A DNA stretch of 64,000 nucleotides from Polytrichum commune (taxonomy: Eukaryota > Streptophyta > Polytrichopsida > Polytrichales > Polytrichaceae), in the NCBI GenBank assembly GCA_950295325.1, contig OX485809.1, forward strand, positions 16,244,001 to 16,308,000. Direction: 5' to 3'. The notes beneath the pieces were generated by a model. The model worked only from the letters and a program-made list of their open reading frames with translations, was not told the origin of the DNA and did not search any database. This document shows, piece after piece, positions 9,004 through 61,000 of this stretch. Positions within the stretch are counted from its first letter, which is position 1. Every line of letters starts with the position of its first letter. The translations under genes and the position numbers were made by a program.

Positions 9004-9049
9004 TTCTTATGCGAAAACACTTCGTGATGGAACTTAAAATGTGCTCTAC

Positions 9050-36563: not shown

Positions 36564-36884
36564 TTACCATGTGTATACATAAATCAAGTGTAGATGCACC
36601 CCACATGATAACGTCTCCAAATTGGGATTAAATTTGCCAGACTTTGGACGACGTGTAGGTGTTGATGTGGTCGCTTGTGCAACACCAACGCCTTCCAAAT
36701 ATACGGGAAGCAACAATGATCTAAAAGGGAATGATAATTGTTCCATCGTCTTGTCAACACTGCATTTAGATGTACATAATGAGGGTTAGTTACTTGGATG
36801 ATACACAAGTTCACAAAAATCAATAAATTCAAATAGGTTGGGCAAAACTCACATACTCAAATATGAGTTCCTTGCTACTTTGCG
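36564..36884 (-). pseudogene. 3' part of a methyltransferase-like gene split by the giant MULE
   Basis: The minus-strand reading frame entering from 51996-52165 continues through the 10-bp target duplication (36875-36884) as R-K-V-A-R-N-S-Y-L. It reaches a GTATGT donor after 36857, and a further exon starts at 36759 after a TGCAG acceptor. This intron sits at a similar place to the last intron of the methyltransferase gene carried inside the element (after S-E-Y). The last exon itself is not recognisable, and its frame is uncertain (stop at 36584 or 36564). This is the downstream half of the gene whose motif I half lies at 51996-52604. Confidence 0.5.
36875..36884. repeat. Target-site duplication of the giant MULE (left)
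   Basis: CTACTTTGCG; the identical 10-mer is at 51986-51995. Confidence 0.85.
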
Positions 36885-36970
36885 GAGGGAAGCTATCTTA
36901 TGAGCAACGAGCAGTGAGCGGTGAGCAGTAACACATGAGCAATGAGTAGTAACATATGAGCAATGAATCC
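36885..36970 (+). repeat. Left terminal inverted repeat with TGAGCRR heptamer array
   Basis: After a 16-bp outer end, ten consecutive 7-bp units run in register from 36901 to 36970: TGAGCAA, CGAGCAG, TGAGCGG, TGAGCAG, TAACACA, TGAGCAA, TGAGTAG, TAACATA, TGAGCAA, TGAATCC. Arrays of short direct repeats inside TIRs are plausible transposase binding sites. Confidence 0.85.
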
Positions 36971-37062
36971 AAATTTAGTAAAAACACATGGGTTTAGGGT
37001 ACACAACCAAATTTTTGACAAATTAATTGCATATTTTCAATTGTAAATTGCCAATATTTTAA

Positions 37063-37310
37063 ATGAAGCACAAGTCAAAGGGCCCTATTTCCATGGATCA
37101 TTTAAAACACTTTCAATCCATTGCTGGTGTTTATTATAATAATCCAAACCAATACATGTCATTTATTGACATCCTTATACATGTAGTTACAACTAACACT
37201 TGCACAACTACTCACATTTCACAACATCAGCAAGTTCAAGTAGGTGCATAACCTCATTATACGTATATGTAGGTGCCATAATTGTGAGCCACTCAAACCG
37301 CTCACGGGTT
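37063..37310 (-). repeat. Second copy of the transposase gene's 3' end
   Basis: 37088-37310 repeats the region 39015-39262 (last transposase codons and 3' flank), sharing ATAATCCAAACCAA.ACATGT and CAAGTTCAAGTAG. The shared CCGCTCACGG motif lies on opposite sides in the two copies. It is a partial duplication flanking the GC-rich insertion, so the insertion and the duplication may share one origin. Confidence 0.7.
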
Positions 37311-37379
37311 GAGTTAAGGCCCAGAATCTACAAAAGAAAGGAAATTAGATATTAGAAATAGTCAATATGTAGGTAACTA

Positions 37380-37590
37380 CTAGGTTTTGAGACATCCGCT
37401 TGTGGATGCGAGTTGTGTAAGAGACTGGTATTAGGTCTGGATCAACCCGGGTTCGAATCCGGTTGGTTACATTGACCGGTGCTATCCCAAATTGAGCTAG
37501 TGATAAAGCAGGAATAATCTATAGGCGGATACCAAGAAGACGTTACTACGCGGATGTGCGTAGAATCTTCTCAATTATATTATATTTTTA
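37380..37590 (+). mobile_element. Possible tRNA-derived SINE
   Basis: GGGTTCGAATCCGG at about 37449-37462 is a perfect RNA polymerase III B box, with a weak A-box-like GCGAGTTGTGTAAGAG about 40 bp upstream and an AT-rich tail near 37570-37592. No cloverleaf can be closed, so a tRNA gene is not called. A primer-like relic is an alternative. Confidence 0.4.
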
Positions 37591-37599
37591 GAAACTTGT

Positions 37600-39010
37600 T
37601 ATTATTTATTTGTGTGAATCAATCAAACCTGTGAGCTAGGATCACCCCCACCCTTAACTGCGTCGTAATCCAGGTGGGGGATCACCATTTCACAGTTTGG
37701 AACATGCCCACCTCCAATGGTGGTTCTTTCCACCTCTAGGTGACCCTTAATAATGAATAACCGTTTACTTTATTACTAATACTCATGCGTGTCATAACAC
37801 GAACGTGAGAATCAACACAATAAGTCATACATTAGCTTTTCACCTAAATTCCTAGCTTAACTATCACCCTTCACTACTTCACTAATATTACTGCCTTAGC
37901 TTAACTCGGTTAATCCAGCTTAGTTCTCAGTTGACCGTTGTCCTTTCATGCCCTTGGGCCTAATTACAACCAGCTCCTGGCCTCTTAGACCAATCCCGTT
38001 ACCGGCCCCGTTACCGGCCATGTTACCAGCCCTATTACCGGCCATGTTACCAACCGTGGCTAGGCTGATCCCTTGCACCCTTCCTACCACACGTGGCTCT
38101 CGCCTATCTGGTCTGAGCACCCTTCCCATGCGTTCACAACTGTTGAGACCCCAGCCACAGCTCTCGGCCATGCAGCCATCAATTCGCATTTGTGCAACCT
38201 CCTCTCTGTCCTGATTCACCATTTAAATGAGGCTTGTGGCCTGGGCTCTTCCCCGCTCAATTTTGATCATTCTTCACATTAGTCATGTTGTAGTGCCCTC
38301 CGAACCATTTGTTTCGAACAATGTTGGTCGCAACCTGTGGAATTCACCTTCTCCTTTCCAGCTCGCCCCTGCCTTGTGGCATTGTGCCAAGTTCTTTTTG
38401 AAAGGCCGAGGCCTCCAGGCATTCGAATTCAAACAATCCCTATCCCAGCTGCGCCCTCGGCAACCTCTATCATTTGCTCCAGCTTAGCCTCCAGCCTCCT
38501 TCCCCTCTTTGGCACAACACTTCCTCCTCATTCTCGGCGGCATCCATCTAGCTACCTACTAACTCCTCCAGCATCCATCACCAGCCTCGCATTCGGCAGC
38601 GCCTTACTCCTCGGCGGTATCATCCCCCTCCCCCTGCTAGCTTGCTTGTTCGAGAGAGAGCTGAGTTGTGAGAGCGGCGGCCTCAATGGCGCCCGTCCGA
38701 GTCCCTGGATCCGCACTTTACTAGGGTGCAGTGGCACCTGCCTAATTCGAACAGTTCCCAAGCCTTTTCAAGTCACATAAACCCCAGGCTTACAAGGCCT
38801 AAGGTCTAAGCCTAAGAACCACCTTAATCACCTCCTAGTCAATTCCCTTACACCTGCTCTCATTATTCAAGCACTAAGTACTAACCTCCTATCCCTAACC
38901 TTAATTCTAACACAACTCCAATCCTCCATATTTTTTATGTTTTAATTAATTGATGAAAACTCCAAATCTAAGTTTTAATGTGTTTTTCAGGTTGAGAACA
39001 CATGTGCCAC
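37600..39010. other. GC-rich insertion inside the left arm, non-coding
   Basis: Composition changes sharply here. 37996-38055 is a 12-bp minisatellite (five units of the type CCGTTACCGGCC), whose reverse translation gives the Gly/Asn/Met-rich repeats of a chance frame. Overlapping frames up to 147 codons at 38337-38780 show no domain. Origin unknown; perhaps an LTR or another host fragment. Confidence 0.45.
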
Positions 39011-39185
39011 AGAGTTTGGGCTCACAAAACCGCTCACGGTTGGGTCGTAGTCTAAATAGAAATGAAGTTACTGAATCATTTGAAATACTTTCAATCCATT
39101 GCTAATTTTTATTATAATAATCCAAACCAAAACATGTCATTTATTGACATTCAAATATATGTTGCTTAATACAACACTTGCAATA

Positions 39186-42100
39186 CTACTCACATTCTAC
39201 AATACCAACAAGTTCAAGTAGTCGCATGACCTCATTATAGGTATATGTAGGTGCATGAATGAACTTGTCACTCTCGTAATCCACCTTGCACAAAAATCTA
39301 AACACATAATAAAGATGTTTACAATACACCCATTTTCCTTTCTTTCCCAATGCATGAGAGGACATTTTCGTGAAGTCCGGGCATGTGCAATGCGGGATGT
39401 CACCAATTGTGACACGGTATGTAATATCCACTTTGGAGACAATGTTGATTATCACTCCAAAACCTGGATATGGAATGGCAGTCACCCCAACTACAAAGTA
39501 ACCATCCATGAGTCCGGCACTCTCCCATTTGTTTTTGTGATCCGCTGTCGGTGCGGTCGGATTGCGACGAACTGTCTTTCCAAACCTGAATGTAGGGTGG
39601 GCGTCTGGGTTGGGTGGCATACGAAAATGCGAGCGAGGGATGAGAAGGGTTGCAATTGTAGAAAGCCTACGACGGGGGGATAATGCTTCCCTTTGCTGTA
39701 GTTGAAATCCAGCGTCCTCAAGCGCCAACACCTCCTCTCTTGATAGATTGGTGCCTATCTTCACCGGCCAAGTGTTAGGCACTATCGGCCAATCCAACAC
39801 ATATTTCTTCTTACTACCACTCATACAACGCTTGATGTCGTCAGGGCAGAACCAAAATTCATACTCCACATTGTTGGGAGAGCGAAATTCCTTCTTGAAC
39901 CCTTTGTTGGAGCAGGTGTGCCATGTTTTCCAGTACCGACTTTGGCATTGCACATCGTTCCTGTAATGCCCAACATCGTCTAGCTGAGTTGGGTGGCAAT
40001 CTTGCAATGTGCCAATTAGAAGCAAGACAATCAGTCTCTAACACGGATGTAGTATGAGTCACACCATGTTGTGCAGAATTCAACGATTCCTCTATGCGTT
40101 GACGAGTTGCACGAGTGTTAGGGCGAGGAATTGAAAAATTCACTTTGTCGGGTCGATGAGAATCACAATCAGCACCCGGGGGCATGTTGAGTTTTCGTTT
40201 GGTGGACCCAAATAGCTCGGACCCTTCCAATGCACAATCTCTAGTGTTGACGTCTTCTGCCCCCGGGAAAGACTTCATGACATCAGCCAAATTTTTTGGA
40301 TCTCCACACCTGGCAGCCGCCTTAAGTTTCAAGGACGCCAAATCAGGACCTTTACCATGAGACCCCCCTTTCAACCATGCACGGTAATTCGTGATTTGCA
40401 TGAAGGCACGGAACATGTCATCAACAGTAGCTTCATACATGCAAGTCATCTTGTTGCCGGATTGTTGGAGCCATTTGTTATGAACAGTCTCGGCAAGGTT
40501 GCATGTTGGCATTTCTGCACGCTCATCTATTGTCATATCCTACGAACAACATACAAATATGGGGTTAAGAAAAAACAAGACACAAATTTATAAAAATGGA
40601 AAAAATACGGGGAAGTTCAATGACATTGAATAATGCAGTGTGGTATGCACTTACAAGTAGCATATGACCACCCCATTGTCTATAACAGAAGTGCCAAAAT
40701 CCCAACCACTCCGAAAGGCCAAGGATGTCTTCTTCTGTGGTAGCTCCAGATGACAACCACCAAGAACGAATCACGTGATACTTAGTCTCGGCATCGTCCA
40801 TTGTTACCGCGTCCTTGTAATCCTTGCATATTTGCTTGTGTTGAAACTGCAAGGATGGTTTGATATATTTTTGTGTCACCTTATCCAAGCTTGCAGACTA
40901 GTGGAAAAGGCATGTGCGTTCACGTGCGACCATGGGCAGGCTTGGATCGCCGTCCCCATAAACCATCCGCACCTCATTCCAATTGGCTTGAGCATTGTCT
41001 GCCATGAACCCTTTGAAGTTTGTTTTTGGAACACCATTCTCGGCCATAACAGCATTCAGATTTTCCCAAAAGAGAGTTTGTGCTGCACCATCTTCAGATT
41101 GAATGTCACAACACGCAATGGTCAACACCTTACAGTATCGACTGTCGTACACATGGCAAGCCATTGTCGTCCAATCCTTCAAACGTTTGACATGGTCAAA
41201 CATGATCCAAGAATTCTCCATATCTCCCCCGACTTGCATCCTCTTTACAAGCTCCACACCACTGCACGGAAGGTCTACGGACATCTTGAAAACAAAAATC
41301 TTGTCTTTCGATTGCCCTGGGAACTGACTATCATGGACAAACTTGAAAGCAAAATGGTCTTTGAGTGCCATAATACTATCCATAGTTCCCATTCCACTAC
41401 GCACAAAACGTTTTGATTCAAATACAAAATTACGACAATTTGGGAAGGCTAGAGTGCTGAATTTGTCCATGACCACCCGTAAGGAAGAACCAACCAAGTG
41501 ATGGCTTTCTACAATTGTGGGAGATCTAAGAAGGTAATCGGCCAAGAATTGTTTGCTCGCGGCCATAACTATGGCGGAATTTGTGGCTGTGGGTGTTTTC
41601 AACACTTCATTGGCAACGCACTGGTATGCCATGTCCAATGATTCACGACATGTACCATTGGATACAGGGTGATCATGTACACCAAGATGAATGCAAGCTC
41701 TGGACATCCCAGCAGAGGCGGAATGAATGTATATAATGCGAGCAGGGCACAAAGCAATGCACACAGGTGTTGAACGACATACCTTACACTGGATAGTAGA
41801 CCTAGTAGGGGCAACATTACCCACAAGAAATGGCAGAGGGGTTGAACCGGCCCATTCAGTGGTGTTGCGCAGACCCCCATTGCGATGCATATAATCACAG
41901 TAGTTATTAGGACATTGGAGATGACCTGCACAAGTAGAACGCCGAAAGGATAATCCAAAATCATTTTGGATATTCGTGGTTTTGGTGGTGCACCAAGGGT
42001 GACCGTCACACATTTTATCCATACCATCTATGGAGCGGCCATACGTATTTGGAACTCCAAGTGCCATAGGGGGCAAAACAAATAAAACGTCGCCGTCAAA

Positions 42101-42786
42101 AGAAGATGGCAAGTATTTGACATCACAGACATCTATATTGTCAAAATCAATGAATGCAAGATCTGACTTTGACCTTTTCTTAGACTTTGTGAACTTCAAG
42201 GCATCAACGATAGTCAACCCTGTAGATGATGGTGAAAGGTGCAATGGAGGGCGCTGAGAAGGTGTTATACAGTGAACCAATGTGTTGCACATAGGACTGA
42301 ATGGGGATTTGGGAAGTTGTGAAGGAGTGAAGGAGTGGAATTTTTACTTTCAAATGGAAATGACGATATGTCTGAAAGATCAACAGCAACACAAATATCA
42401 TCTTCTGAATCAGACAGCACCAATACACTATCATCATTGGGCTCCAACTTAATAGTTGCAACAGTGGGCATTTGAACTGTGGATGTACCGGATTCATTGA
42501 TCAGTAAGACAGTTGGAGCTTGCATCTGCGATTCAGAAAGACATATGACCCTAAATGAACCAGGCCCTAAAATCCACACAAATCCATCTTCAGTTCTGGT
42601 CTTTTGAACCAAAATCGTTTCATACACCTCTCCATCCGCAGAGTACATCTCTTGTTCTAAATACATGCTTCTTAGTTGGAGATTGAATCTCAAACTAAGC
42701 AAATCTTCCGAGACACACACAAAACCATCATCCTGAAGTGGTAGCAAGAAATGAACAAAGGATCCAGGAGCTCTAATGGTAGCCAT
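39186..42786 (-). pseudogene. MULE-type transposase with zinc finger, DDE core and SWIM finger (broken)
   Basis: Reading from 42786: an N-terminal domain (LLPLQDDGFVCVSEDLLSL, VICLSESQMQAPTVLLINES), then a frame change near 42300 (indel or intron). The 42292-40898 segment has a GCM/WRKY-like zinc-finger region (CAGHLQCPNNYCDY, GVHDHP) and a DDE core (D383 in HVYDSRYCKVL, D432 in FMADNAQANW, then RERTCLFH). A single TAG at 40898-40900 interrupts the frame, which continues as SLDKVTQKYIKP to RQWGGHMLL. A 115-nt intron (40654-40540, GTAAGT/GTAG) follows, then AEMPTCNLAETVHNKWLQQS, a one-base frameshift near 39950, and a C-terminal SWIM finger (C-T-C-P-D-F and C-K-H). It would cut and join the element ends in the nucleus. 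Full length would be near 1,150 residues. One stop and one or two frameshifts make it inactive as read. Confidence 0.88.
40540..40654 (-). other. Intron of the transposase gene
   Basis: 115 nt with GTAAGT donor and GTAG acceptor, phase 0 on both sides; supports a nuclear plant-expressed ancestor. Confidence 0.75.
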
Positions 42787-43157
42787 GGAAAAAAAAGCAA
42801 TAGATGCACGTCACAATAATATTGGATGGACGGAGGTTATTATACTGAATGGTATGTACTAAAAAATGGGGTGTAGATCAAAACTTTGAATACTATAGCA
42901 TCCAATAAATACACAAGTAGACAACTCACACTGACAGTCAAAGAATAGATTAGGCCAAACATAGAACCCTAAACCAAACCCAATAAACTATCTCATTTGG
43001 AAACAAAACCATAGCGAAACCCAATGCACAACTGAGATGTGGATCTTAAGTTCATGACACCATAAGTCATGTCCATTATAACATTGGGAAGAATACATGA
43101 AGAAGAGATTTAACTAATGTATATAACTTAATAAAAATATAAACTATTTAGAATATA

Positions 43158-43264
43158 GATCTATATATCTATATATCTATGTCTATATGTCTATATGTCT
43201 ATATCTATATATCTATATGTCTATATGTCTATATGTCTATATATGTATATATGTCTATATATGT
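43158..43264. repeat. TATATGTC/TATATC microsatellite
   Basis: Alternating 6- and 8-bp units between the two divergent gene blocks of the element. Confidence 0.85.
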
Positions 43265-43763
43265 ATGAATTTCTAAATGAAAACGGAAGAAGCGCGGGCA
43301 CGGATATCATTGAAAAACGTGTTATATAATGAACAAATACATATAAATCGATACTAACAATTTGGCGAATAATTTCACTTTTTATATAATGTTGGGGAAG
43401 TGAAGGATTTAAACCCTATAACCTTCTTAGAATGTTCCCCAATCATGTGCAAAAAAAATGATTTCGGAAAATTTCCAAAAACTCTACGATGTAATCAATT
43501 TCAGAGTTTTTAGAAATTCATAAGAATTAGAAATTTAATGAAAACAAACCTAATTTTTTGTATATCACTACATATGATGGGTGTAACTATGAGAAAACAT
43601 TTTCAAGCTAATTAATTTTAATATGTAGAAAATATACCTATCTAAAGTTTTCTAAAATCTATGGGTTTTGTATTTTTTTTATTTTTTTTCAACCTTTCAT
43701 TCCCCTCTGAACCTAAATCTAAATCTAAACCCCTTCGCGTTCACGGCCGCCATGGCCGAGGCA

Positions 43764-43770
43764 TATAAAT
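43764..43770 (+). promoter_or_regulatory. Probable TATA box of the cargo transcription unit
   Basis: GGCATATAAATAAGG lies just after a GC-rich patch (CGGCCGCCATGGCCGAGG) in AT-rich DNA. A start about 30 bp downstream would place the palindrome array inside the transcribed leader of the kinase gene. Confidence 0.45.
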
Positions 43771-43870
43771 AAGGATGAGAAGGTGTTTCTACAACAAACT
43801 TATATGAGCGACCTTCTATTTAGCACTGCCTATGAGAACAAGTTTATAGAGAAGTTGCTGGTTGGACCTG

Positions 43871-44533
43871 CTTGTGCGCTAGCGCACAAGCCTGCATTAG
43901 GACTATTTCTGTTCATTTTTCCTTTCAATGCTATCACTTACATAAGATTTGTTTAGCCCTGCTGCTGAGAGTTGTTTGTGCGCTAGCTCACAAACATCCT
44001 AGAATTCTTTGTGTTTACTTTGTTTTTCAGATCTATCATTTGTATACGATTTATTGCGCCCTTCTGCTGAAAGTTCTTTGTGCGCTGGCGCACAAACATC
44101 CTTTAGGACTCTTTTTATTTAGGGTATTCTTTAGATATATCATTTGCATATAATTTGTTGCGCCCTTCTACAGGAAGTTCTTTGTACGCTGACGCACAAA
44201 CATCCTTTAGGATTCTTTTTGTTTACTTAGTTCTTTAGATCTATCATTTGCATACGATTTGTTGCGCCCCTCTGCTGGAAGTTCATTGTGCGCTGGCGCA
44301 CAATCCTTTCTTAGTACTTCTATTCATTTTTCTATTTTAGTTCTTACATTTAGTTTAGGCTTCATTTCATTTTCTTTGGTTTGCACTTCATCTGCCTTGC
44401 TGTTGGATTATACTTGTGCGCTGGCGCACATTAATCAGGTATTTTTTCATTGATTTTTTTCTTTACTTCTATCAATGCTTTTAAGCTTCTTCTGCCCTGC
44501 TCCTGCTTTCTGGTTGTGCGCCAGCGCACAACC
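43871..44533. promoter_or_regulatory. Array of seven palindromic sites, about 103-bp period
   Basis: Sites: 43871-43890 (CTTGTGCGCTAGCGCACAAG, perfect), 43974-43995, 44077-44096, 44181-44200, 44285-44304, 44415-44430 and 44512-44533. The core TTGTGCGCTRGCGCACAA is kept, while bases outside it differ between sites but stay complementary in most. Start-to-start distances are 103, 103, 104, 104, 130 and 97 bp. Most units also share CCCTTCTGCTG..AAGTT ahead of the site. Keeping symmetry while the sequence varies suggests selection on a dimer-bound site or an RNA hairpin. Short frames here (repeated CALAHKHP) merely translate the palindromes. Confidence 0.8.
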
Positions 44534-44867
44534 ATCAATGATGACTAATTCCATTTATATATTATGGTTCATCTACTAATATTTGCTTGAATCTTGTTCT
44601 TAATTTCTTTTAGAACATTTTACAACTTTTGTTTTGTTTTGTTATTTATAATTGGATTTTTTTTAATTGATGTTCTGAACTTCATGTGTAACACTACACC
44701 TCCGATCTGGTTGTGTGCCAAATATGAAGACATCAACTTTCATTCCAGGTATTTTTTCACTCCATTATGTTTTGTTTTGATTTATTTTGTCTTGTTCTAT
44801 TTTATTTTGCTTTGTTTTATTTTGTTTTGTCTTGCTTTGTTTTTCTTCTAAATTCCGAATCATCTCA

Positions 44868-45075
44868 GCTGGCGTGGATGGATGTTTTATGCTTCCTCAC
44901 GTCCTGGGTGTTAGGACGTGTAATTACATCATACTCATTATTTCCAGCTGGTATGGTCTACATGATTATAATTTTTATGTGCATATCCTGGATTTGATTT
45001 TTAACATTCAACTTTAAATGGCCCTAGCAGACGTGGATGGATGTTTCATGCATTCCCACGTCCTAGGTGTTCATA
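44868..45075 (+). repeat. Direct repeat pair in the cargo leader
   Basis: GCGTGGATGGATGTTTTATG..CCTCACGTCCTGGGTGTT (from 44872) recurs as GACGTGGATGGATGTTTCAT..CCCACGTCCTAGGTGTT (from 45028). In the better copy the outer GACGTGG and CCCACGTC are complementary, so each can fold. Non-coding; meaning unknown. Confidence 0.6.
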
Positions 45076-45299
45076 TATGTATTTCTATAATATATTTTCC
45101 TTCTATCCGTGTACCAATCTATTTTTAACTGACTTTTAAGATGTGTATCTAAATCCTATATTTCATTTCTTCAACATTAAGTATACAACCCATAGTATAT
45201 GGTAATTTTATGTGGTTTTATTGACTCTTATATGCAGGTGTTCATTGTTCGTTGATACTATCTGCAACATATTATTCAAGGTGATTATTACTTACAACT

Positions 45300-46796
45300 A
45301 TGGAATATCTTCTCAATAAGCCTAATCAAATGGTTACTTTGAGTGTGCAAAGCTTCATTGTAGAATGGTGGGCTGACATGTCTTGGGATTCAATTCATCA
45401 AAATTTTGTATCGATGAGTATGTCCGGCCCTATTCTTTTGCGTGAGCGTGTGAAGATCATGTTTGATGATTGCATCTTGAGATGTTTTCCATCATGCAAA
45501 GAAATGTCCAACTATAATACTTGGAAAGACAACGTCTCTTCTAATTTTGTTGGACAAATGCCCGATGTGGTTTCAAAGGTGCATCGGAAAGTCACGCATG
45601 GTTGGACATTGGACAAGTTAGAAGCGCAAATATTTAATTCCGATCGGTGACGAGTGGAGATTCCACAACTTTCAAGACGTACAAAAACTCATGTCAAAAA
45701 TTTGAACCGTGTTGATCGATATGTCATTTCTGGAGGTGGTGTTTTTCTTTTTGCTTGGAGAGATGTTGTTATTGAAAAGCATGAACGACTAGACCGTGGT
45801 TCATATGGAGTGGTATGGAAATGTTTCATTAAGGACAATTCAGATACTGATCCATTCGTACCCTATGCCATTAAATGTTTTTTGGATCATAATGGAAATC
45901 CTCATCATGCAAGCATGAAGGAGTGTTATTCTGTGGCTTCCATAGATTATGGTGGTGTTATCAAATCGTTTGCTTTCGAAATGACACTCGCACCCGCCAT
46001 CTTCTTGCCTTATTGGAATGGTGGGACATTAGGAGATATGTTCAAATGTATGAAAGACCATGCAACTAATGAGTATGATGTTTTTCAACGTCTTACAATA
46101 TTCAAGAAAAATCATCCAGAACAAATCTGTAAGATTTAAGAATTGGAGCGGTTAAGGCTTTTCTTGTTAAACCGTTGTACCCTTGCGATCACCTTCATTC
46201 AAATCATGGCCGATGTACTCACCATTCATAATGTATTTCTTGGTGATTTATCCTTTACAAACATCTTATTCCATTTTGGTGAGATAGATGACAAAGATGA
46301 AATTTACATAGGCATTCGTGATTGGGGATCGGCAACAATATCGTCGGATATACGACATTCAAATCATTTCTTGCAATCTGAATTTTTGAGACATTCTAGG
46401 CTCCAAGAACGTTGGTGGGTAGATCCTGAGTTGTTATTCAGCAAAGACCACAATGCTCGTCCGTGCCATACCGAAAAGACAGAGTCATATTCTGTATCAA
46501 AGATTGCAGAGGCTATTTGGGGTTTATATGTCGATCCAATATGTCTCATAGTCATTCACTCTCGTTCTTATAATATTTTGTTACATTGTATTCGTCGAAT
46601 GTTATGCACTTCAACCACGGAGCTTCGCATGACCCCTACTGATGTCATGAATCGATTATCTCGCGAACCAGATTTTCATACTTTTCCCTTTAACAAACAC
46701 ATCCGTCAACGTTATCTTACTCTACTAGAACAGAATAGGGTTTATAGTCGTCAAATTAATTGTGATGATGAAATCCCTTTCAAACGTCGGAAATAG
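45300..46796 (+). pseudogene. Protein-kinase-fold cargo gene (two nonsense codons)
   Basis: One frame of 499 codons is broken only by TGA (45648) and TAA (46137). After a unique N-terminal region comes a kinase-like domain. It has a glycine loop LDRGSYGVVWKC (about residues 164-175), the ATP-binding lysine in YAIKCF (K192), a hinge FLPYWNGGTLGDMF, and a catalytic loop LGDLSFTNIL in which D316 and N321 are kept but the HRD histidine position is Leu. A metal-binding RDWG follows (D341, DWG for DFG), then a C-lobe with WWVDPELLFSKDH and SYSVSKIAEAIWGL. These residues suggest the undamaged ancestor could bind ATP and perhaps phosphorylate. The family within the kinases is not recognised. It precedes the ParB-methyltransferase gene by 135 bp on the same strand. 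A role in transposition or in countering host silencing is only a guess. Confidence 0.75.
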
Positions 46797-47749
46797 ATTA
46801 TACATTTTTATATTAATAAAGTATTGGATTTGTAAAATCCATTATGTATTATTTTGAAGTATATATACGATGAAGTTATTTCTATCATTTTTTGTTTACA
46901 TTTTCATTTATGTTTTTTGTTTGCAGAAAATATGTTTCCTAAAGGAAAACAAAAAGACCCATCCTCCGATGCGTTACAACCTCTCTCACCAAGAATACAA
47001 ACTATCCATTGACAAGGCGTTAAATCAACAACTAGGAAAAGAAGACAAGGTGAAAACTCCACCCCTACGCGAAGGTCTCATCACAACAAGGGACTTCAAC
47101 CTGATGTTGTTCTTGAAACAGTGGAAGAAGATTGTGCATCTTCCATGCATTGAAACGATCAACCACAAGTCCATTATAAAGAAAATACAATGACATTGTC
47201 GCAAAGATTGGAGCCATTTTTGGGACAAGATCAAAATATCACTGAAGATATTGCAACAAAAATTGTGGATAATATTGTGGATTTAGTTGCAGAATAAGTT
47301 ATTGAGGAATCCACTTTAGAGAAATTGCATGAAGAAAATCAAGACAATCTGTAATATGATGATACACAAGACTCTAAAGAGAATCAACACTTTCAAGTGA
47401 CACAAACTTCTCCAGAGAATCAACAATTTCAGGATACACAAACTTCTCCAGGAAATCAACACTTTCAAGAGACACCAAATTCTCAACATACTAAACAATT
47501 TCAAGAACAACAACTTTCTCTTGTGAATCAACGATCACAGCATAGAGAGCATTCTTTGACATTGTCTCAAGGGACAATATCTACATCTCAATTTACTGGT
47601 GGACCTTCTGAAGGTGTAACTAATCGATGCAAAAAAGAGAAGGTAAATTTTATTTTCATTTGTATTTAACGGTTTGAATTTTTTTAATTTATATATATAT
47701 TCTATTATTATTAGGTTTATAGTCTCTTACATACATAAATATTGTGCAG

Positions 47750-48347
47750 AGTGGAAAAAATGATATTCATGAAGGATCGATTATGGACACCTCCGCCTAC
47801 ATTGGAGAACCCAGCTGAACATGAAGGGAAATCCATCAAGTACACGAGAATGAGACTCTTGGATTGAAAACAAAAAATCAACTCGACATTGAATGATATA
47901 TGTGTCATGAAATATCCTGTGCCTATCCCTTTGTGTCGAATGATTGACATGGAGGTGGTTAGGCCCGCATTGGACGATGATGTATCAATTTTGTCACGTT
48001 CGTTTCTCAATGGTTATATTCCTGAGTCTGCATCATTTTATGTCTCGGTAGAGCATGAAGAGGGATACACGATTGATGTCAATGATGATATTGTGAATGA
48101 ATGGGATGAAATTTGGAAACAAAAAAATGAAGAATTTGAAGCGTATCTGACAGAGCATGGTTTGCATGCATTCAAAAATAAAATGTTTCACATTTGGGAT
48201 GGAAATCATCGCTTTAAAACGTGGTACAATACCAAAGAGATGAAGTTGGGTGGTGTTGAATATCATATAAGCCCTACATCGATAATCCTTGATGGACGAA
48301 AAGAAAATCATTATGTTATCACATGTCTCTGCGATGATATCAACATG
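47750..48347 (+). other. ParB/Srx-like domain exon
   Basis: The pattern follows the ParB N-terminal fold: an I-P-x-x-x-I strand, then R-P, D-D-D-V-x-x-L-x-x-S-x-x-x-G-Y-I, a variable insert (NEWDEIWKQKNEEFEAYL) and the signature strand and turn W-D-G-N-H-R-F-K-T-W. In ParB and Srx proteins this turn (normally G-x-x-R) binds a nucleotide. The insert is longer than in ParB. One TGA at 47865-47867 breaks the frame. Assignment rests on motif order only. Confidence 0.55.
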
Positions 48348-50039
48348 TAAGTATTTTATTCATTTATATTTTGATTATCTTATATTGTTAATTTTTTTTA
48401 CATGTTTCATCTTTAAGTTTTTCATATTTTTATATTTATGTTTATATTTTGAAATGATTCAGATCAACAGAGAAAAATGTTGTCAAACCTCGATTCATTC
48501 ACACTCTTCAAAGTGACAAAATATGGAAGTCAACCGCTGGAATGGTGGGAAGGAAGGATTAGTCCTGAGCAAATGGCTTTGTGCAAAAAGAGAAAATCAG
48601 TAAATTCTAAAAAGTGGTATAATGTCACACAAGAGATCCTGGTCGAACATATTTACAAGGTAAATTTTGTTTTTCCTTATTTCTTTAACTATGTCAATTC
48701 ATATTTATGGATTTCTAGATTTTCTTTCTTTATGCTCATCAATACTTTGTATTGTACAGAGTGAAATTGAGGACGAGGTTGCAAAAGCAACTGAAAACTA
48801 TATCAACTTGGAGGTTGCAGATCACATCGGATTACAACAAATAATTGCAACAGCATCACAATCCATCAAAACTAAAAAACGGTCAACACTGGTTAAAATT
48901 TTGGCCATCGTTGATCCCGAAAATGGCACAGAGTTTTTTGATGAAATCAAAAAACACTATGACAAAAATGGAGACAATGTGCAAATGACCCTTGATCGCC
49001 TCCATCGTCTTTGTCAATCTCAGGTTGACTCCAAAGAGAAAACGAATTGGCTAAAGCTCAGGAATGCTAATGATGACACAAAACATGCTGCATCGTTTCC
49101 TTTAGAAATTGGAGGAAATGATGCATTGGATCCATGGCTGACAAGAAGAACATTTTGGTGGCAGGTATTTATATATGAAGTTTACTATTTGATATGTAAT
49201 ATATTTATTTATCAGATATATAATATATATGTATGTTTGATATATGTATTATGATACATAATTATTTGTATATTAATTATTAATTATTTTTATGTATGTT
49301 ATACAGCTCAAAGAGGAGGCATACAAAAAAATTGACTACTACATCAATCATGATGATGCAACACAACGATTGGTGTTGGACAATATGACTTCGGATGTTC
49401 CGGATGTTGTCTCATATATTAGAACATGGGAGGAAAAAATTGGGAACATGGCCTTTTTAGTGGAAATACCCACTATGGTGAATGCAAAGACTGTGTGGAG
49501 GAACAATATATGGAAAGATCAACCAAGTTCTGCTGCAATCATGTATCGTATAATTTATCGATACATTAAATTCATTTTGATTGCAAATGGAAAACTTCGA
49601 GGTCGTCCATCATGGTGGTCTTCTTGGACACTTGCAGAAGGAATGCTTTGGAATATTGAACAAAGAAAATGGCCATCTGCACATCGCGAAGGGGGAGGTT
49701 GGTATTTGGACCTTCCCAATGGTTCTTTACCAGAAGAAGAAACACAATTGTTTCAAGATTGCAATGCAAGAGTTGAAGAACAAAGAAGTGTTGGTATTAA
49801 TGTGGGTGAAATGCCAACATTTGAAACCGAACAACCATCGGAGTCCTCCAAACAACCATCGCAGTCTTCCAAACCACATATTCAATTGAGGAAAAAAAGA
49901 AAAATAATCGATACAGAAAATGACGAACAAGATATTGTCCCAAATCCAAAGCCACCAAGTGGTTGAGTGTCGTTAAGATCACAAATTGCAACTGTACCAA
50001 AACCGGGAAGAAATCTTGATTTTATTCCCAAGGTAGGCC

Positions 50040-50996
50040 TTGTTAAAGGTGATTGGTACGATTGTCATGTTTTTTATGAAAAACACAAAAAAAACATCTC
50101 CTGATTTCAAAAATTTGATGTCATGGATGAAAGATGTTTCTTTGGGAAAAGTAAACAACGTGAATGGAATTGTTACCAAAGCATGTGTGGACCTAATTAT
50201 CGTTGATATTCCAGATGGGATGCCAATCCATGGTATTGACGAAGGGCGTACTATTCCTTCTTGGATGCAATCGAAGACAGATGAATGGTGGGAGACATTG
50301 TTTGATTTTTTGGAATCAATACTTTCAGACAATGGTTGCACGCTTATCATGTGCAATGCCAAGATGCCAAGACTGCAAGAAAAAATTGTGAGTTATGCAC
50401 TAGGGACCAGAGATCGTCCAAAACATTTTTGTTTAAGGAAGCATGTCAAAACATTCACAATTGTGAACTGTTTACCACAAAATGCTCCTAACGGTATCCA
50501 AACTGCTCTTTCCAACATTCTTCTCTTGAAGAAACCATCTAGTTCATTTGCCCTCTCGGATGCTGCTAGCTACATAGATCCATTTGTGGACATCAAACAA
50601 TTGGATGTTCTGTTCAATCAAATAACGAACACAAACATGTGTTTGAACCAATGTGGACAATCTTGGAGGGGAGCTAAAGAAAAAAAACCCTTTGGTTATG
50701 CAACAACTCATTGAAGCATGTTCTCCATTACGTGGTCGTATATTGGATTTGTCCGTGGGTACAGGTGCAAGTTTTCACGCTGCAAAAGAAAGTGAAAGAC
50801 ATATTTTTGGTTTTGAAGCAGATGAAGAAATACACATGGGGTTATTGGATGCTTTATTCCAGAGTTTGAATGTTGAAGCATCCAATGTATTTCAAACACC
50901 CTTAGAACCTTCCTCAAGTATTGGTCCAAATTTTGAGGATGTAGCTCCAAAGCAAGGGCGCAAATTTGTGGCCATTGATGTATCTGATTCTGAATA
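50040..50996 (+). other. Beta-class methyltransferase-like domain
   Basis: Motif IV-like segment near 50185-50230 is followed by WWETLFDFLESILSDNGCTL, a variable target-recognition-sized region, W-R-G-A-K-E-K, the motif X-like P-L-V-M-Q-Q-L-I-E-A, and motif I (D-L-S-V-G-T-G-A-S) with its acidic partner (G-F-E-A-D-E). The domain is about 300 residues. A poly-A indel separates the two halves in frame. The SAM-binding glycines are kept; the catalytic DPPY is not. Confidence 0.7.
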
Positions 50997-51913
50997 GTGA
51001 GTAAGTCTTCAAGCTAATTGCAAATTTTATACAATGAATTTGCATGTGTACGTTTATTTTTCAATATATTACTTAAACTCATATTAATATTGTTTTTTTT
51101 TTTGCATGATTAGCATTGGATTGAAAGATTGGTTTGCAAAAGTACCATCAACTCCAAATTTTGTACAAGACCTACCAATATATGCAAAGTCAATGGCACA
51201 ACACATGGCACAACAACAAGAAGTTTCACTAGAGTCATCAAGCCAATCAACGGATCTTCATCCTAGACGATTAGTAGAAATGTTCATGGACATAGAGGCC
51301 CATGAAAAATGAAACTTTACATATATATTATGAAGATGTATGTTGAGAGTTCTCCAATGCCAAGTTTTCAATTGGGTTGTAATAATTAAAATCATTATAT
51401 ATCTAATGTTTTGACTCTTCAATGTTTGTTGTTGTATATATAGTCTTCAATTTTCCACAAATATATATATATTCAATACCACGGTCATGAACATGCACCT
51501 GTAATTAGGTTTGGTTGTGATGAAACTCTTTGTGGTATATTGTACAAGTTGCATATTATGCATCCACTATATTTGAGTGCACACATGAATGCACCCAAAT
51601 CCATGCACCCATGCACCAATTCATTGTTAAATTCATTGTTAATTATTTTGCTACAATTGATGATATTATTGAACCACACAATAAAACATGTGGATGCAAT
51701 AATTTATCTATAGTTGAAATAAAGATGTATTTATATATGATAAATGTATATATGCCCATAGTCATGTGGGATTTTTTTTTTCTCATTGCTCACTTCTTAC
51801 AATGTTGCTTATCATCCCCACACCTCTCCCTATTAAACCCTAAAATCAAAAACTTTTATGCCAAAATTCCACGGTTATAGGATACTAGTGGCCCTATTAC
51901 CAAATATTTCACC

Positions 51914-51985
51914 TTCCTCACCGCTCACAAGTTACCACTCATTGCTCACCGCTCATTGTTCACCGCTCACAAGATAGCACTCCCC
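51914..51985 (-). repeat. Right terminal inverted repeat with heptamer array
   Basis: Read on the minus strand from 51969 down: TGAGCGG, TGAACAA, TGAGCGG, TGAGCAA, TGAGTGG, TAACTTG, TGAGCGG, TGAGGAA, in register with the outer 16-bp end and mirroring the left array, including the TAAC-type unit. Confidence 0.85.
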
Positions 51986-51995
51986 CTACTTTGCG
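51986..51995. repeat. Target-site duplication of the giant MULE (right)
   Basis: CTACTTTGCG, identical to 36875-36884. Confidence 0.85.
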
Positions 51996-55665: not shown

Positions 55666-58000
55666 TCAGTCAACTTTCTTCTCCATCTCCTTGATCCACC
55701 TCTTCATCATAGCATCAACTCTAATGTTCTCTTTCTCTTTTTTGTTTTCTGCCCTTGCTTTCCTCTTTTCCTCAAGTGTTGCATCCTTTGCATTCTTAGC
55801 ATCTTCTTTTTCTTTGTTCTCAATTAGAAATCCTATACTTGTTATAAGCCTGCCATGACAATGAAGGGCGTTGGTTCTCTTCCTAGATGTAGAAGTATGG
55901 AATTTAAGGATTGCTAGAATATGTGATAGTGACTGACCTTTGTTCCTCTCTGTGCTCTTTGATATGTGTGTAGGAGCAGGAACATGAGGCTGATGGATTG
56001 GTGTAGAGATTGGAGCAATACCATGGGGGGAAGGAGCTACTAGTGGGACACTAGGCTGTTCATGTGGGATACTAGGTTGCACAAATGGAAGAAGACTAGG
56101 CTCTCTTGAGATTAGGTTTTCTTCTTCCATGTAGTCACAATACCATCCTTGGTAGTGGACAAAGATATCCTTGGTAAGATCAATTGCTGCCACATCTCCT
56201 TGAGCTTCATCATTGTTGAAGCTACACACATAATATGATCACAATGAGATGACAATAAAAATCAGCTGCATGTCTCAATAATACTTTTCACATCCCAAAA
56301 TTAACATAGAAAGGATTTGGTGTTATTAGCTGACCTTGAGGTTTTGTACACCAAACTTGTTGGTGAAATTCCTTGAGTCTCTAGGATGACAAGTTCTTCC
56401 TCAGCCAGTGATAACTGTGACAATGATTGTGTTATATCTTGAGGATCCTCCTCAATAGCGACAGTTGTTATCAGCTCTGCTGCAAAGGACCCAAGTCCTA
56501 CATCAATCAATGGTGATTGAATTTGTGATAGTCCAGGCTGAAGTAGCAGGCTAGGTGGGGGGGATCAACTTGAGGAAGCTGAGGAAAGAGGCTGGGTATA
56601 GGTGACATAATGGGGGGGTTTCCAAGATGGGAGAAAAAGTTGGGCATGGGTGATTGCAGGTCTGGAGATGCCACTCCATCTTCTGCTTCAGGTACCTTAT
56701 TCCTCACATATACCTGATCTCCACCTAGCTTTAAGTCCATTGCTCTTTTTTCAATAGGGTATAAACCTGTTGTAGAGAAACCAACCTTAATACTTTTTGG
56801 TTTTAGTGCCTTTGCAAGTGCTCTTGATGCCATTTCAGCTAAGGTAGTCTTCATAGTTGATCCCTTTGCCCAATTGGGATCCTTCCTCATCTTCTCCATT
56901 TTCTCATGTGCTAGGTTCAGTTTGAAGGGATGGAAGATGGCTACATCAAGAGGCTGCAATTCATGAGTTGAATGGGCTCGAAGGGTAAGAATCTCTAAGC
57001 CAATTTCTAGCCCAAATAAGACAGCCTCTCTTGTCACATGGCTACAATGTCCGTCTAAAATTAGTAGGTGCTTGTTCTCTCTAGAGATTCCTCTTGGAAC
57101 ATTGTATTTAAAATATTGCAGCCAATCAAAGAAAATTTCAGATGTCATGTACCCATTCTCTTGCCATGACATTGCAGCATTGGGTTCACAATTCCTTATG
57201 TAATCAATGATGGGCCTTGTTTTCTTCTTGAATATATACAGGTTGGGGATGGAGGACCCTGCTGCATTTACACAGGTCATAATGCTCATCCACTCTCTGT
57301 CATCAGCTATGGTATGTCTCACTGACTTGCTGCCTTTTTTGGCTACCACTTTGATTGAAGAGTTGCCCCCTCCTGCACTCACTCCAGTCTCATCTGAGTT
57401 CCAGATGTGGTTGGGCTGAAAGTCATGTGCAGAGTATATCTGCTCAAGTAGGTTGTAGAAAAAGGTAGTTGATTCCCTATTTAGCCCTAGTGCTCTCTTC
57501 ATTTCTAGACCATCTACACACCTTAAGGTAATACTTGAATGTCTCTTCTTAAATCCATCCCACCATTTCTGACCTAGAATACCATCTCTGAATGGATGTT
57601 GCCTTGGTGCATTCTTTAGAATGGTTTGAATGGTGCATTTGAGCATGTTTAATGTCACACACAAGGCCACCTTCTGCATAGAGAAGCACCATCCTACTAG
57701 TGCTAGTTCTTCAACTTCAGTCAGGTATGTTTGATGTCCAATCTTCTTTGTAGATGTCTTGCCATTCTTCCAATCATGTATGCTTGATGGGGGGATTCCA
57801 TACAGCTCTGCAACTTGTCTAATTGAGAGCCTTTTAGACCTCACTGCATCTAAAGCAAACCTCATGGATTCTTCTGACCAGGTGTCCCTTGTGCCATATG
57901 TCCTCTTTCTTACAGGTTTGCAAGGAGCAGGGTTCTCTCTAGGGTTTGGTGGAGCTAAGTTTCCTTGAGGGCCACTTCTAACCTTCTTTGGGACTTGCAC
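55666..58000 (-). CDS. Pogo-superfamily transposase (one homopolymer frameshift)
   Basis: Exon 1 runs 58000 to 56335 and exon 2 from 56221 to 55666, across a 113-nt intron (GTCAGC donor, GTAG acceptor). Residues 43-86 form a psq-type helix-turn-helix (VAELYGIPPSSIHDWKNG). About 91-165 resembles a CENP-B/Tc5-type second DNA-binding domain (GQKWWDGFKKRHSSITLR). The DDE core has D203 (IWNSDETGVS), D316 (LILDGHCSHVT) and D352 (QPLDVAIFHPFK). The tail, reached after the intron, ends in a charged coiled coil (KRKARAENKKEKENIRV). A run of seven G at 56557-56563 shifts the frame; otherwise it is open over about 740 codons. The indel could be real or a sequencing slip. No inverted-repeat ends with TA were found. 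Confidence 0.88.
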
Positions 58001-61000
58001 ATTCGTCCTCAGCTGTTGCCAGGTGATGCACCCCGTGGGTCGTTCCCTTGCAATTTAGCTCAAGAAGACTCACGGTGAGACATCACGTAAATTTATATTC
58101 GCTTGAGAACTACCGTGCCTCATTAATATGTTCGGTCTCTAATTAATAATCCCTCTCTTCTCCTTATGATATGAATATAATTATTGGAGTGAACACAATC
58201 TCATTATCTTAATTCTTACTCTCAATGTAAGGCATCATTGATAATAAGAACCATTAGATTTAAAGAAAGCTTCAAGAGGTGTAACAATATCCTTGATAAT
58301 AATATAGTATTCAATAAATTGTATGAATCCTTAATGTTAGTAGTTCATAAACATTAATCACACAAATGATAATAATCTTATAATGATGAAGAAGATCTAA
58401 TATTCTTGAGTCTTCCTTTTTAAACTCAAGTGTTACTACTTATAATATTGTAACTTGACATGTATGCATATAGTAGTTATAATTTCATGAACACATCATT
58501 GATTGTTTTGCAATGTCACGTTTAACATTCAAAGTGTTTTAATGACAAGAATAATTATAACTCTCTTGAGGTTTATTCAAGAGAAAGAACTCCTCTTTGA
58601 TTGTTAATGACATCCAACAACTCACAAAGTATCTTAAGAGAAGAAGCATTTTTACTACAAAGTGTTTCTTGATGACGAGAAGATAAACCTATCTTTCTTG
58701 AGTTTTGCTCAAGAGAGAGAGAGAGATCTTCTCTTGAATAAATAATCCTTCAAATTGTAATGACATCCAACAACTCACAAAGAATCTTAAAGTAAGAAGC
58801 TTCAATAACAATTGTAGTAAGTAGATTATCTTATATCAATATTACTTCATTCATATAGATTCAACTTTGATGTAATTTTATGTCTTCATCATTCTTGTTA
58901 ATCATAAGTTCAACAATCAATATGTAGTATAATATGTATAATACTTATAAGTCAATTATGTAGTTTTTAATAATAAGCTCCTCCTCTTTTGAAGGAGTTG
59001 CAATCGTTAAGTTGTTTTGTTTAAATCATAACATGCATATAATTCTTCAATCATTCAATCACATGTATATTTATAATTCTCTTTTGAGGAGATCAATGAT
59101 AAGTTTTGCTTTGAGAGATAATCGTGCTTCCTTCACTCAAGTTGTATAAATTGACAATTGTTTTCTCATATCAATCTCTCTCAAAGTTCCATTGATTCTC
59201 CAAATTGTCTTGAGCGCTTTGTTCTCACCCTCACACTATCTTTTGAGTTCTTTCTCAAAAGAGTCTACTCAATCTACTCTACTCTCGGTTGCTCAATCAC
59301 TTAAGCTACAAAGTACCATTGACGACTCGTAGTCCAAATTGAGAGAGGTAGAAAGATCACACGCATTTGTAGAAAAGATAAGTGTATTGCAAAGGTTCCT
59401 CGAGAGGAGAGTTACAAAAGCTTCAAGTGATTCTTGACACTCAAATTTAAGATAACTTCGTTGTGTAGAAAATGAGGTAATAGTCTCCTAATTTGCTTCC
59501 CTTATATAGTCTTCTCTTCCTAATCCAAAATCTACATTAAGAGTGGTTGTGATCTCCACTTTTCTAAATAACTATCTATCTTCAAAATATGTAGATGTTA
59601 ACTAACTTAAATGGTTATAACCGTTTTACCATTTGAATGTTCAAGTCTCTAAGATTCTACTATATCCTTGTCGTGGCTACATTGTAATTCCTTTTGAGAA
59701 TGCAATCAAGTCTTCACATTTGCTTGATTCCAATGATTTGTATTAAACATACTAGTAGAATCTATTCTTGTCTTATATGCTCATAATGCATCTTCATAAT
59801 GTTTTTGTATCATAAGAATCTAAAATTCTTACATAATTCATAATCATGCTTCTTCAAAATTCCATAATCATGCTTCTTCAAAATTCCATAATCATGTCTC
59901 TTCAAAATCCTTCATTCTAATATATTCCCTTCTTCGGATAATCCTTCATCCTCAAAATCCTACATACTATGCTAATAGAATGTAATTCATACTTCCTAGT
60001 AACTCTATATACCCTTATATACCTCTTACATAAGTCCTTTCATCCTTATATAATAGTCCTCCTTCCTAAATTCTAAGTTTTCCTTTGCTAACCCACTGGG
60101 TACCCATTGCCGTGGGTAATAGGACCTATAACCGCGCGTAAGGTGTGTAAAGCCGTGGCAGTGACCCTATTACCGTGGCCGACCTTCGGAGAGCTCTCTT
60201 CGGTGTTCTTCTTCGGCATTCTTCCTTGGCATTCTTCCTCTTTCTCTCCGGAGTTGTTTGATGTCGTTATGTGCTCTATCTTGCTTCTTTCTCTTCTATA
60301 ATGTTGCCACTCAACACCAGGGGTGTTGAATGGGATGCCTAGCCATCTAATAGTAAAAAAATTACATTAGTTCAAGATTAAGGGTTTGAGTGTGAAGTTC
60401 TTAGGGTTTTAGGAGTAGAATGAAAGAATGTGTGCAAACAATGGCAATGTTAAGGTTAGGATCACACCTTGCAGTTGAAGCATTGATGAAAATGAACTTT
60501 TGCCCTCAAGCTTGTGAAATCATGCATTGCTCCACAGGTTCAGTTGTGCAGCAACGCTCCCCGTGCCGCCCCCCACAACTCCTCGCAACTCAAGAGAAAA
60601 GACATTCTCCTCCCGCAGTTGCGGTTTCACTCTGAAGTTCATCCGTTTAAAATTTTCATCCGATCAATTAAGCATTTGTCGTTCATTCAACATCGTAATG
60701 TTTAATGCATGTTATTCTTGATGTGCTGCAAATTCTCATCCAATTATGAAATCCTCATCCAGTCTATCGAACGTGTTCCCAAAGAAATTTTCATGCGAGC
60801 GTTTTGTCCGGTTGCTGTCCGGTCCGTGGGCCGTGACCGGTCATTGGCGTGCTTATTTTTTGAAGATTTTCCAAGGTGAGTTTTGGTTTAGAGTTGGATG
60901 TCCAATGTTTAATAATCTCCATCCAATGAATTCATCAATTAAAACCAAAAATAATAAAACACATAGGAATGAATTTAGAAATGTTAAAATAAAAACATAC

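Follow-up and report, generated by a model that had tools for sequence, protein, structure and literature searches.

Why does a plant transposon carry a gene that resembles a bacterial DNA methyltransferase? The question arises from a stretch of 64,000 nucleotides of the Polytrichum commune genome (assembly GCA_950295325.1, contig OX485809.1, forward-strand positions 16,244,001 to 16,308,000), analysed here at its full length and called the window; coordinates are counted from its first letter. An earlier note, made from the letters alone, had placed at 46932-51312 an intron-bearing gene in which a ParB/Srx-like domain is joined to a beta-class DNA methyltransferase-like domain. It had assigned the surrounding element to the Mutator-like elements (MULEs) and had considered a functional link to DNA marking. 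The best overall explanation that we can offer, and we offer it tentatively, is a two-gene Mutator-like transposon in which an exchangeable cassette would encode a self-specific DNA-binding regulator that does not methylate. Genome-wide searches covered the assembly of 407.8 Mb.

A complete transposon encloses the gene

The flagged gene is enclosed by a complete DNA transposon of 15,101 bp, delimited by inverted repeats and a 10-bp target site duplication (TSD), and its location in a eukaryotic transposon is thereby confirmed. The borders can also be read from copies elsewhere in the genome. The match of the C4 copy begins at 36885 and that of the C1 copy ends at 51985; the C5 and C1 copies have no match left of about 38.6 kb and 38.2 kb, respectively. 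Two further elements carry 10-bp TSDs of their own, CATTGGCGAC and ATCGAAGTTA, and a TSD of this length was observed in all three elements with both ends in hand (window, C4 and C1:64.5M). The main parts of the element outside the flagged gene are as follows (ORF, open reading frame).

36885..51985, no strand: whole transposon, type a; inverted repeats, matching the borders of the C4 and C1 copies
36875..36884, plus strand: left TSD CTACTTTGCG, identical to the 10 bp at 51986-51995
51986..51995, plus strand: right TSD CTACTTTGCG, identical to 36875-36884
36885..36966, plus strand: left terminal inverted repeat (TIR) with internal GAGCGGTGAGCA-like repeats, from inverted-repeat comparison
51918..51985, minus strand: right TIR, from inverted-repeat comparison
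39186..42810, minus strand: transposase gene in pieces (ORFs 42265-42810, 40898-42343, 39859-40539 and 39186-40037), with a weak C-terminal SWIM match
45285..46796, plus strand: protein-kinase-like ORFs, interrupted (PF07714, E=8e-4, below the cut-off)

The transposase occupies the minus strand on the left, and the kinase-like ORFs and the flagged gene follow on the plus strand on the right. Short direct repeats resembling GAGCGGTGAGCA are present in both TIRs (36885-36966 and 51918-51985), as might be expected of transposase sites.

Classing the element as a Mutator-like DNA transposon with two genes is plausible. The 10-bp TSDs, the TIRs and a weak match to the SWIM zinc finger (window transposase, 14.8 bits at E=0.02, below the cut-off of 19.6; type b, E=0.076) speak for the MULE assignment, whereas no Pfam transposase domain was recognised. 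Open transposase homologues of 742 amino acids were found elsewhere in the genome, and neither part of an open transposase of 742 + 454 amino acids matched any Pfam transposase family at E<=10. By our own reading of the sequence, the protein would have a D..D..CxxH layout. Mutator-like elements are described as having TIRs, TSDs of 8-11 bp, a SWIM-type transposase and extra ORFs such as mudrB, MutB, vanB/vanC, SET and OTU (PMC6446971). The element studied here is like those with extra ORFs in its TIRs, TSD length and additional ORF, and unlike them in that Pfam misses the transposase. The word methyltransferase does not occur in the main text of that survey (PMC6446971).

A bacterial-type methyltransferase domain in a gene of five predicted exons

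The flagged gene extends over about 46.9-51.3 kb of the plus strand. Five exons are predicted, with GT/AG junctions at 48347/48462, 48660/48759, 49165/49306 and 50997/51113 deduced from the sequence, in agreement with the intron-bearing structure proposed earlier.

47868..48346, plus strand: exon 1, "ParB-like" motif with WDGNHR (IPLCRM..VVRP / NGYI / WDGNHR); donor GTAAGT
48463..48659, plus strand: exon 2, frame broken in the window copy; predicted junctions
48760..49164, plus strand: exon 3, middle region; predicted junctions
49307..50996, plus strand: exon 4, middle region and methyltransferase domain; broken in the window, open in three sister copies
50205..50219, plus strand: motif IV, DIPDG replacing [DNS]PP[YFW]; sequence reading and alignment
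50746..50766, plus strand: motif I, DLSVGTG, the SAM-binding (S-adenosylmethionine-binding) loop; sequence reading and alignment
51114..51312, plus strand: exon 5, the last; same exon in the C1 and C4 sister copies (L001 and L002)

The two halves apparently belong to one gene, as the earlier note had it: the exon order is constant across subfamilies that are about 38% identical, and the junctions resemble splice sites. The gene was present in all six subfamilies examined (a-f). Genome-wide, exon 1 had at least 150 scored matches (150 of 1005 candidates), the exon with motif IV at least 150 (150 of 724 candidates) and the transposase at least 89 (89 of 2180 candidates).

The window copy is broken in frame in exons 2 and 4. 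Exon 4 is a single open frame of 577 amino acids in three sister copies (C1:9.66M, C4:44.1M and C5:16.87M), and in C5:16.87M alone of the three, exon 1 and the transposase exon are also without stops. When compared with this frame, with indels disregarded, the window copy has three stops, four other copies have a terminal stop only, and a fifth (1718 of 1734 bases aligned) has none. For exon 1, the ratio of nonsynonymous to synonymous differences per site (pN/pS) was 0.41 among 11 type-a copies and 0.58 among eight type-b copies; for exon 4 it was 0.49 among six copies. As point values, these ratios suggest constraint.

By sequence similarity, the C-terminal half is firmly assigned to the beta-order amino-methyltransferase domains of bacterial type, because concordant matches were obtained in Pfam, PDB, PHROGs and profile-profile comparison. 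PF01555 matched the window piece with motifs X and I just under the cut-off (E=7.4e-6, 26.5 bits against 26.7). The Pfam scan covered two of the three sister copies with open exon 4; the match was above the cut-off in L001 (E=1.1e-7, profile positions 1-216 of 221), and in L002 (E=1.5e-8) the best stretch was the C-terminal part of the profile (163-216). Matches at E<=1 were found in seven of the eight members of the motif X/I alignment, and the genome-wide search with PF01555 gave five matches, in two type-a copies and on contigs C10 and C12 only. The PDB profile search returned DpnA (7.2e-6) and CcrM (4.2e-4), and PHROGs returned DNA methyltransferases (phrog_67, 5.6e-8, for type b). Profile-profile comparison of nine family sequences with ParB-fused bacterial and phage methyltransferases (35 of 44 reference loci) reached a probability of 98%, E=1.8e-13 and a score of 96.3; of 60 column shuffles, none scored above 26.1. 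Exon joins were approximate in the queries used for PHROGs, NCBIfam, the profile-profile comparison and the Pfam scans of L001 and L002.

As had been noted before, motif IV precedes motif I (50205 before 50746 in the window), and this order is the same in all nine aligned sequences. In the nine rows, the Asp and the last Gly of motif I are largely retained, and its first Gly is often Ala or Ser. The Glu of the ExD that follows motif I is retained in eight of them, including the window; L001 has Lys.

Close relatives were sought among viral contigs (A2), where none of 27 pattern matches was a relative, and by two tblastn searches of phages, which found none. Bacterial or phage-like ParB and ParB-methyltransferase genes were observed on the small contigs C10 (47 kb), C12 (61 kb) and C23 (20 kb), with DPPY in C10 and C12; these contigs are probably contamination. 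By reading, an intein-like insertion separates motif IV from motif I in the C10 gene. An unusual expansion was seen in a planctomycete record, CP087563.1, with nine ParB-methyltransferase-like loci (L076, L077, L079, L080, L082, L090, L093, L094 and L104).

The catalytic motif is lost

The catalytic motif [DNS]PP[YFW] was found in none of the 22 family sequences read (six type-a copies, L033, L029-L032, L035-L042 and L118-L120, which include loci read but left out of the alignment). Type-a copies have DIPDG in five of six cases and DIPYG in one (L001). The 16 loci of other types have QFPDG, DIPEG, DLPEG, EYPDG or DQPEG, and once DIPQG (L037). The position of the Tyr is therefore taken by Asp or Glu in 20 of the 22 sequences, by Gln in L037 and by Tyr in L001. 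The acid that recurs here, with the Gly after it, has the appearance of an altered function and not of decay. In the bdelloid N4CMT, replacing the Ser and Tyr of SPPY abolishes activity (PMC8885841).

From these motifs we infer that the protein methylates DNA no longer. DNA marking by it is unlikely, because [DNS]PP[YFW] is lost in 22 of 22 sequences, and the functional link to marking considered in the earlier note is doubtful.

Pairing with the transposase and exchange of cassettes

Exon 1 lies within 10 kb of 43 of the 89 scored transposases in head-to-head (divergent) arrangement, and of 44 in any orientation; random placement gave 0.17 on average and at most 2 in 500 trials. In the representatives of subfamilies c, d, e and f, a transposase of the same kind is located upstream on the opposite strand in four of four cases. 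The methyltransferase-like gene accompanies the transposase as a regular partner.

The two partners differ in divergence. Among types a, b, d' and e', transposase identity is 82-93% and first-exon identity 36-45%, and the palindromes are different, which indicates that cassettes were exchanged. In the comparison of b with d', the transposases are 93% and the first exons 41% identical. The transposase has a synonymous divergence (dS) of 0.515; in exon 1, dS is about 2 and near saturation (proportion of synonymous differences, pS, 0.70). At the DNA level, types a and b are 84-93% identical over 36885-37629 and 39027-42828 and 85% identical over 51802-51985, and no similarity between them was detectable over 42829-51801. 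Their TIRs are about 89-91% identical. As judged from the sequences, these comparisons show replacement, as a unit, of a block of roughly 9 kb that holds the palindrome array and the methyltransferase-like gene, and in type a the kinase-like ORFs too.

Type-specific palindrome arrays

In the window, the non-coding stretch between the transposase and the methyltransferase-like gene contains an array of palindromes; none is expected in shuffled sequences.

43872..44303, no strand: tandem repeat, period 104, 4.2 copies; the unit starts with the palindrome
43873..44530, no strand: five palindromes TGTGCG-N4-CGCACA, starting at 43873, 44079, 44287, 44415 and 44515

In total, 14 intergenic regions were scanned for palindromes with arms of at least 7, with 20 first-order Markov sequences per region as the null. 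Counts exceeded the null mean in 13 of the 14 regions and the null maximum in 11; L113-L117 include exon 1 in the region, and several regions, as copies of a single type, do not count as independent. The palindrome sequence varies with the type: TTGTGCGCTGGCGCACAA in type a (4/4 copies), CCTGTGCGTTAACGCACAGG plus GTTTGGGTCGNNCGACCCAAAC in type b (4/4 copies), GGGTGCCGTTGCCGGCACCC in c, GGGTGGCCGTTAACGGCCACCC in d', GGGTTTCGGTACCGAAACCC in e' and GTGTCTCGGTGCCGAGACAC in f. Type e has a few sites based on GCAGAATTCTGC, and in types b and f some of the sites are intronic. Six palindrome types (a, the first set of b, c, d', e' and f) share the form GT..CG-N4-CG..AC.

The type-a site TGTGCGCNNGCGCACA occurs at 43 places genome-wide (its reversed control at none), and 41 of these are inside the 11 close type-a copies, each of which has at least one; these places were matched to exon-1 places by eye. 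The two outside, C3:51230788 and C7:38394198, are possibly remnants or host sites. The e' site GGTTTCGGTACCGAAACC has 41 occurrences, which form 19 clusters. Of these clusters, 14 (32 sites) are within 4 kb, always upstream, of an exon 1 at least 68% identical to that of e' (14 of 20 such places), and none is within 10 kb of the remaining 130 exon-1 places of that search. Type f has 657 forward palindrome matches; among the 100 matches listed, six of eight clusters are within 10 kb of a motif-IV exon, in a comparison with a subset of the motif-IV exon places on C1. In types a and e', most or nearly all of the array sites are next to a gene of the matching type.

Proposed explanation

In the explanation that we tentatively prefer, the left TIR and the transposase form the conserved half of the transposon and the other half is an exchangeable cassette. 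The cassette would consist of a gene descended from a bacterial-type beta-order amino-methyltransferase and of the type-specific palindrome array. Its protein would have lost methylation and probably retained SAM binding, and would use its N-terminal region to contact, in dimeric form, the palindromes that lie in the introns and the divergent promoter of elements of its own kind. The protein would then act as a self-specific transcriptional regulator, most likely, by analogy, an anti-silencing factor that lifts host repression from its own copies. A wider form of the claim, which we hold a little more loosely, is that within a clan of eukaryotic transposons non-catalytic recognition proteins have arisen from a bacterial-type methyltransferase and that many mutually distinct types coexist in a genome, each reading its own palindrome and swapped as a cassette among elements whose transposase stays the same.

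Several observations weigh against this explanation. The block is replaced as a unit, therefore array and gene would travel together even without interaction, and the co-segregation of palindromes and gene could be plain linkage. The type d region (L109/L020) has no palindromes with arms of at least 7, and in type c the count of 4 is not above the null maximum of 4, the four sites being nearly identical. No exact type-a site is present in the diverged type-a relatives (C1:72.03M, C2:51.88M, C4:42.13M, C4:57.35M and C6:19.40M), and for five of the 19 e' clusters the search listed no partner gene. The pN/pS values below 1 are point estimates, ParB homology of exon 1 is unproven, and Pfam scans of the family exons gave no match to DUF1985 or DUF287, both of which Pfam contains. 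Types b and d' share the central GTTAAC, and types a and b the outer arms TGTGCG..CGCACA, which also fits recognition by their 85% identical transposases.

These shared arms favour a rather unlikely alternative, in which the transposase or a host factor uses the palindromes as binding or regulatory sites and the methyltransferase-like gene is carried as cargo for some other role. Binding to repeated subterminal sites is common among transposases. This alternative has to accommodate types b and d', whose transposases are 93% identical yet whose palindromes differ except in that central motif, and the four different palindrome sets in a, b, d' and e'. The TIRs, where transposase sites are expected, are conserved between a and b.

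Less probable again is a role in DNA segregation, copy pairing or chromatin organisation of the elements for a ParB-like protein spreading from parS-like palindromes. Exon 1 has a DGxxRxxA motif and lies ahead of the methyltransferase domain, as in the ParB-methyltransferases of bacteria and phages. Palindromic sites of 16-20 bp are near the gene, and we take the e' site to resemble bacterial parS. Nevertheless, no sequence test supported a ParB domain. Pfam gave no ParB match in any of 14 family members, the PDB profile search with exon 1 gave nothing relevant, and NCBIfam and PHROGs offered no support for exon 1. Genome-wide, PF02195 had four matches, on the small contigs C10, C12 and C23 only.

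Profile-profile alignment of exon 1 with bacterial ParB domains scored 14.6, a value equalled by 8 of 60 column shuffles. With hhalign, shuffles scored as high in 8 of 60 cases under default and -mact settings, 53 of 60 under -glob and 26 of 60 with low gap costs, and in 22 and 98 of 100 after an insert of roughly 40 columns was removed; the reference comprised 37 of 44 bacterial, phage and contaminant loci, seven being dropped as truncated or off target. In the local hhalign alignment, the score of which is not significant, the DGNHR turn pairs with the GHxR turn of ParB. Against full-length bacterial proteins GNHR best matches, over five columns only, a linker motif LGNHRL ahead of the methyltransferase domain, and MAFFT left GNHR unaligned with bacterial ParB domains. 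A single-sequence structure model of exon 1 was unusable (mean predicted local distance difference test score, pLDDT, 30.4). The ParB/Srx domain proposed in the earlier note is hence reduced to a motif resemblance, a lead that is not established. Of the two profiles that the note had named for one gene, PF01555 was found (1.1e-7 in a sister copy) and PF02195 was not (0 of 14 members).

Slightly less probable still is a decaying passenger, captured DNA without function whose palindromes are hairpin-prone repeats. The broken window copy and the stops in many copies suit it; pN/pS of 0.41-0.58 among young copies, the open 577-amino-acid exons in three of them, the presence of the gene in subfamilies a-f and the different arrays in most subtypes do not. 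Single capture of a host gene was rejected, since gene and transposase are found paired in each of the six subfamilies examined.

Least probable is an active methyltransferase that marks its own palindromes with N4-methylcytosine (4mC) or N6-methyladenine (6mA) to protect or label the transposon, set aside for the loss of motif IV in spite of the strong domain homology, SAM-binding motifs that look largely retained and the CG-N4-CG of six palindrome types: [DNS]PP[YFW] is absent from 22 of 22 sequences, the lone Tyr of L001 faces Asp in five of six type-a copies, and replacement of the SPPY Ser and Tyr kills the bdelloid enzyme (PMC8885841).

Neighbouring and additional features

The kinase-like ORF has a narrower distribution than the methyltransferase-like gene and is specific to type-a elements and their diverged relatives: its 11 strongest genome matches fall in the 11 close type-a copies, and the diverged type-a relatives C4:42.14M, C4:57.35M and C2:51.87M come next. 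A further 90 or so matches are weaker, with identity around 27%; many of them lie in open frames of about 708 amino acids, suggesting that a different family of repeats also has a kinase-like gene. Outside the element, the window contains a separate pogo/Tigger-like transposase (56507-58051, minus strand; DDE_1 E=2.6e-19, HTH_psq) and a nodulin-like/NFD4 transporter gene (6471-9006, minus strand) that appears to be an ordinary gene of the plant.

Relation to known systems and significance

Transposon-borne DNA-modification genes are as such already known: DIRS retroelements have genes for Dam-like methylases, and KDZ transposons for TET/JBP proteins. In the open-licence literature, judged by titles and the beginnings of abstracts, no description of such a ParB/methyltransferase transposon system was found. 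The fusions of ParB with N6/N4 methyltransferases (PF02195 + PF01555) in bacteria and phages are comparable in having motif IV before motif I and an N-terminal region in the same place; they differ from the present gene, in which ParB is undetectable and DPPY is lost, and which has a long extra middle region, introns and a location in a eukaryotic transposon. Bacterial-type amino-methyltransferase genes in eukaryotes are represented, in the account of PMC8885841, by bdelloid N4CMT and the Marchantia 4mC methyltransferase. According to that account N4CMT retains SPPY and deposits 4mC, unlike the gene described here, which has lost the motif, is transposon-borne and exists in very many copies.

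By analogy, VANC, a protein of the VANDAL elements (MULEs of Arabidopsis), comes closest in function. As presented in PMC5735166, VANC is variable beside a conserved transposase and binds family-specific motifs that lie in tandem repeats within introns and upstream regions and turn over rapidly. Both systems have a fast-diverging second gene beside a conserved transposase, and family-specific short motifs in non-coding repeats. They differ in that VANC has DUF1985/DUF287 and the 9-base YAGTATTAY, and the Polytrichum family a methyltransferase-like domain and palindromes of 16-20 bp. VANC removes silencing; here an anti-silencing role is suggested by the analogy, the proteins being unrelated.

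If the protein does read its own palindromes, the family would provide a clear case of a DNA methyltransferase fold retained after loss of the catalytic motif. One genome would then represent a natural library of DNA-recognition proteins, each beside its cognate sites of 16-20 bp. With many copies and some open exons at hand, self-specific escape from silencing would be directly testable on a scaffold unlike that of VANC.

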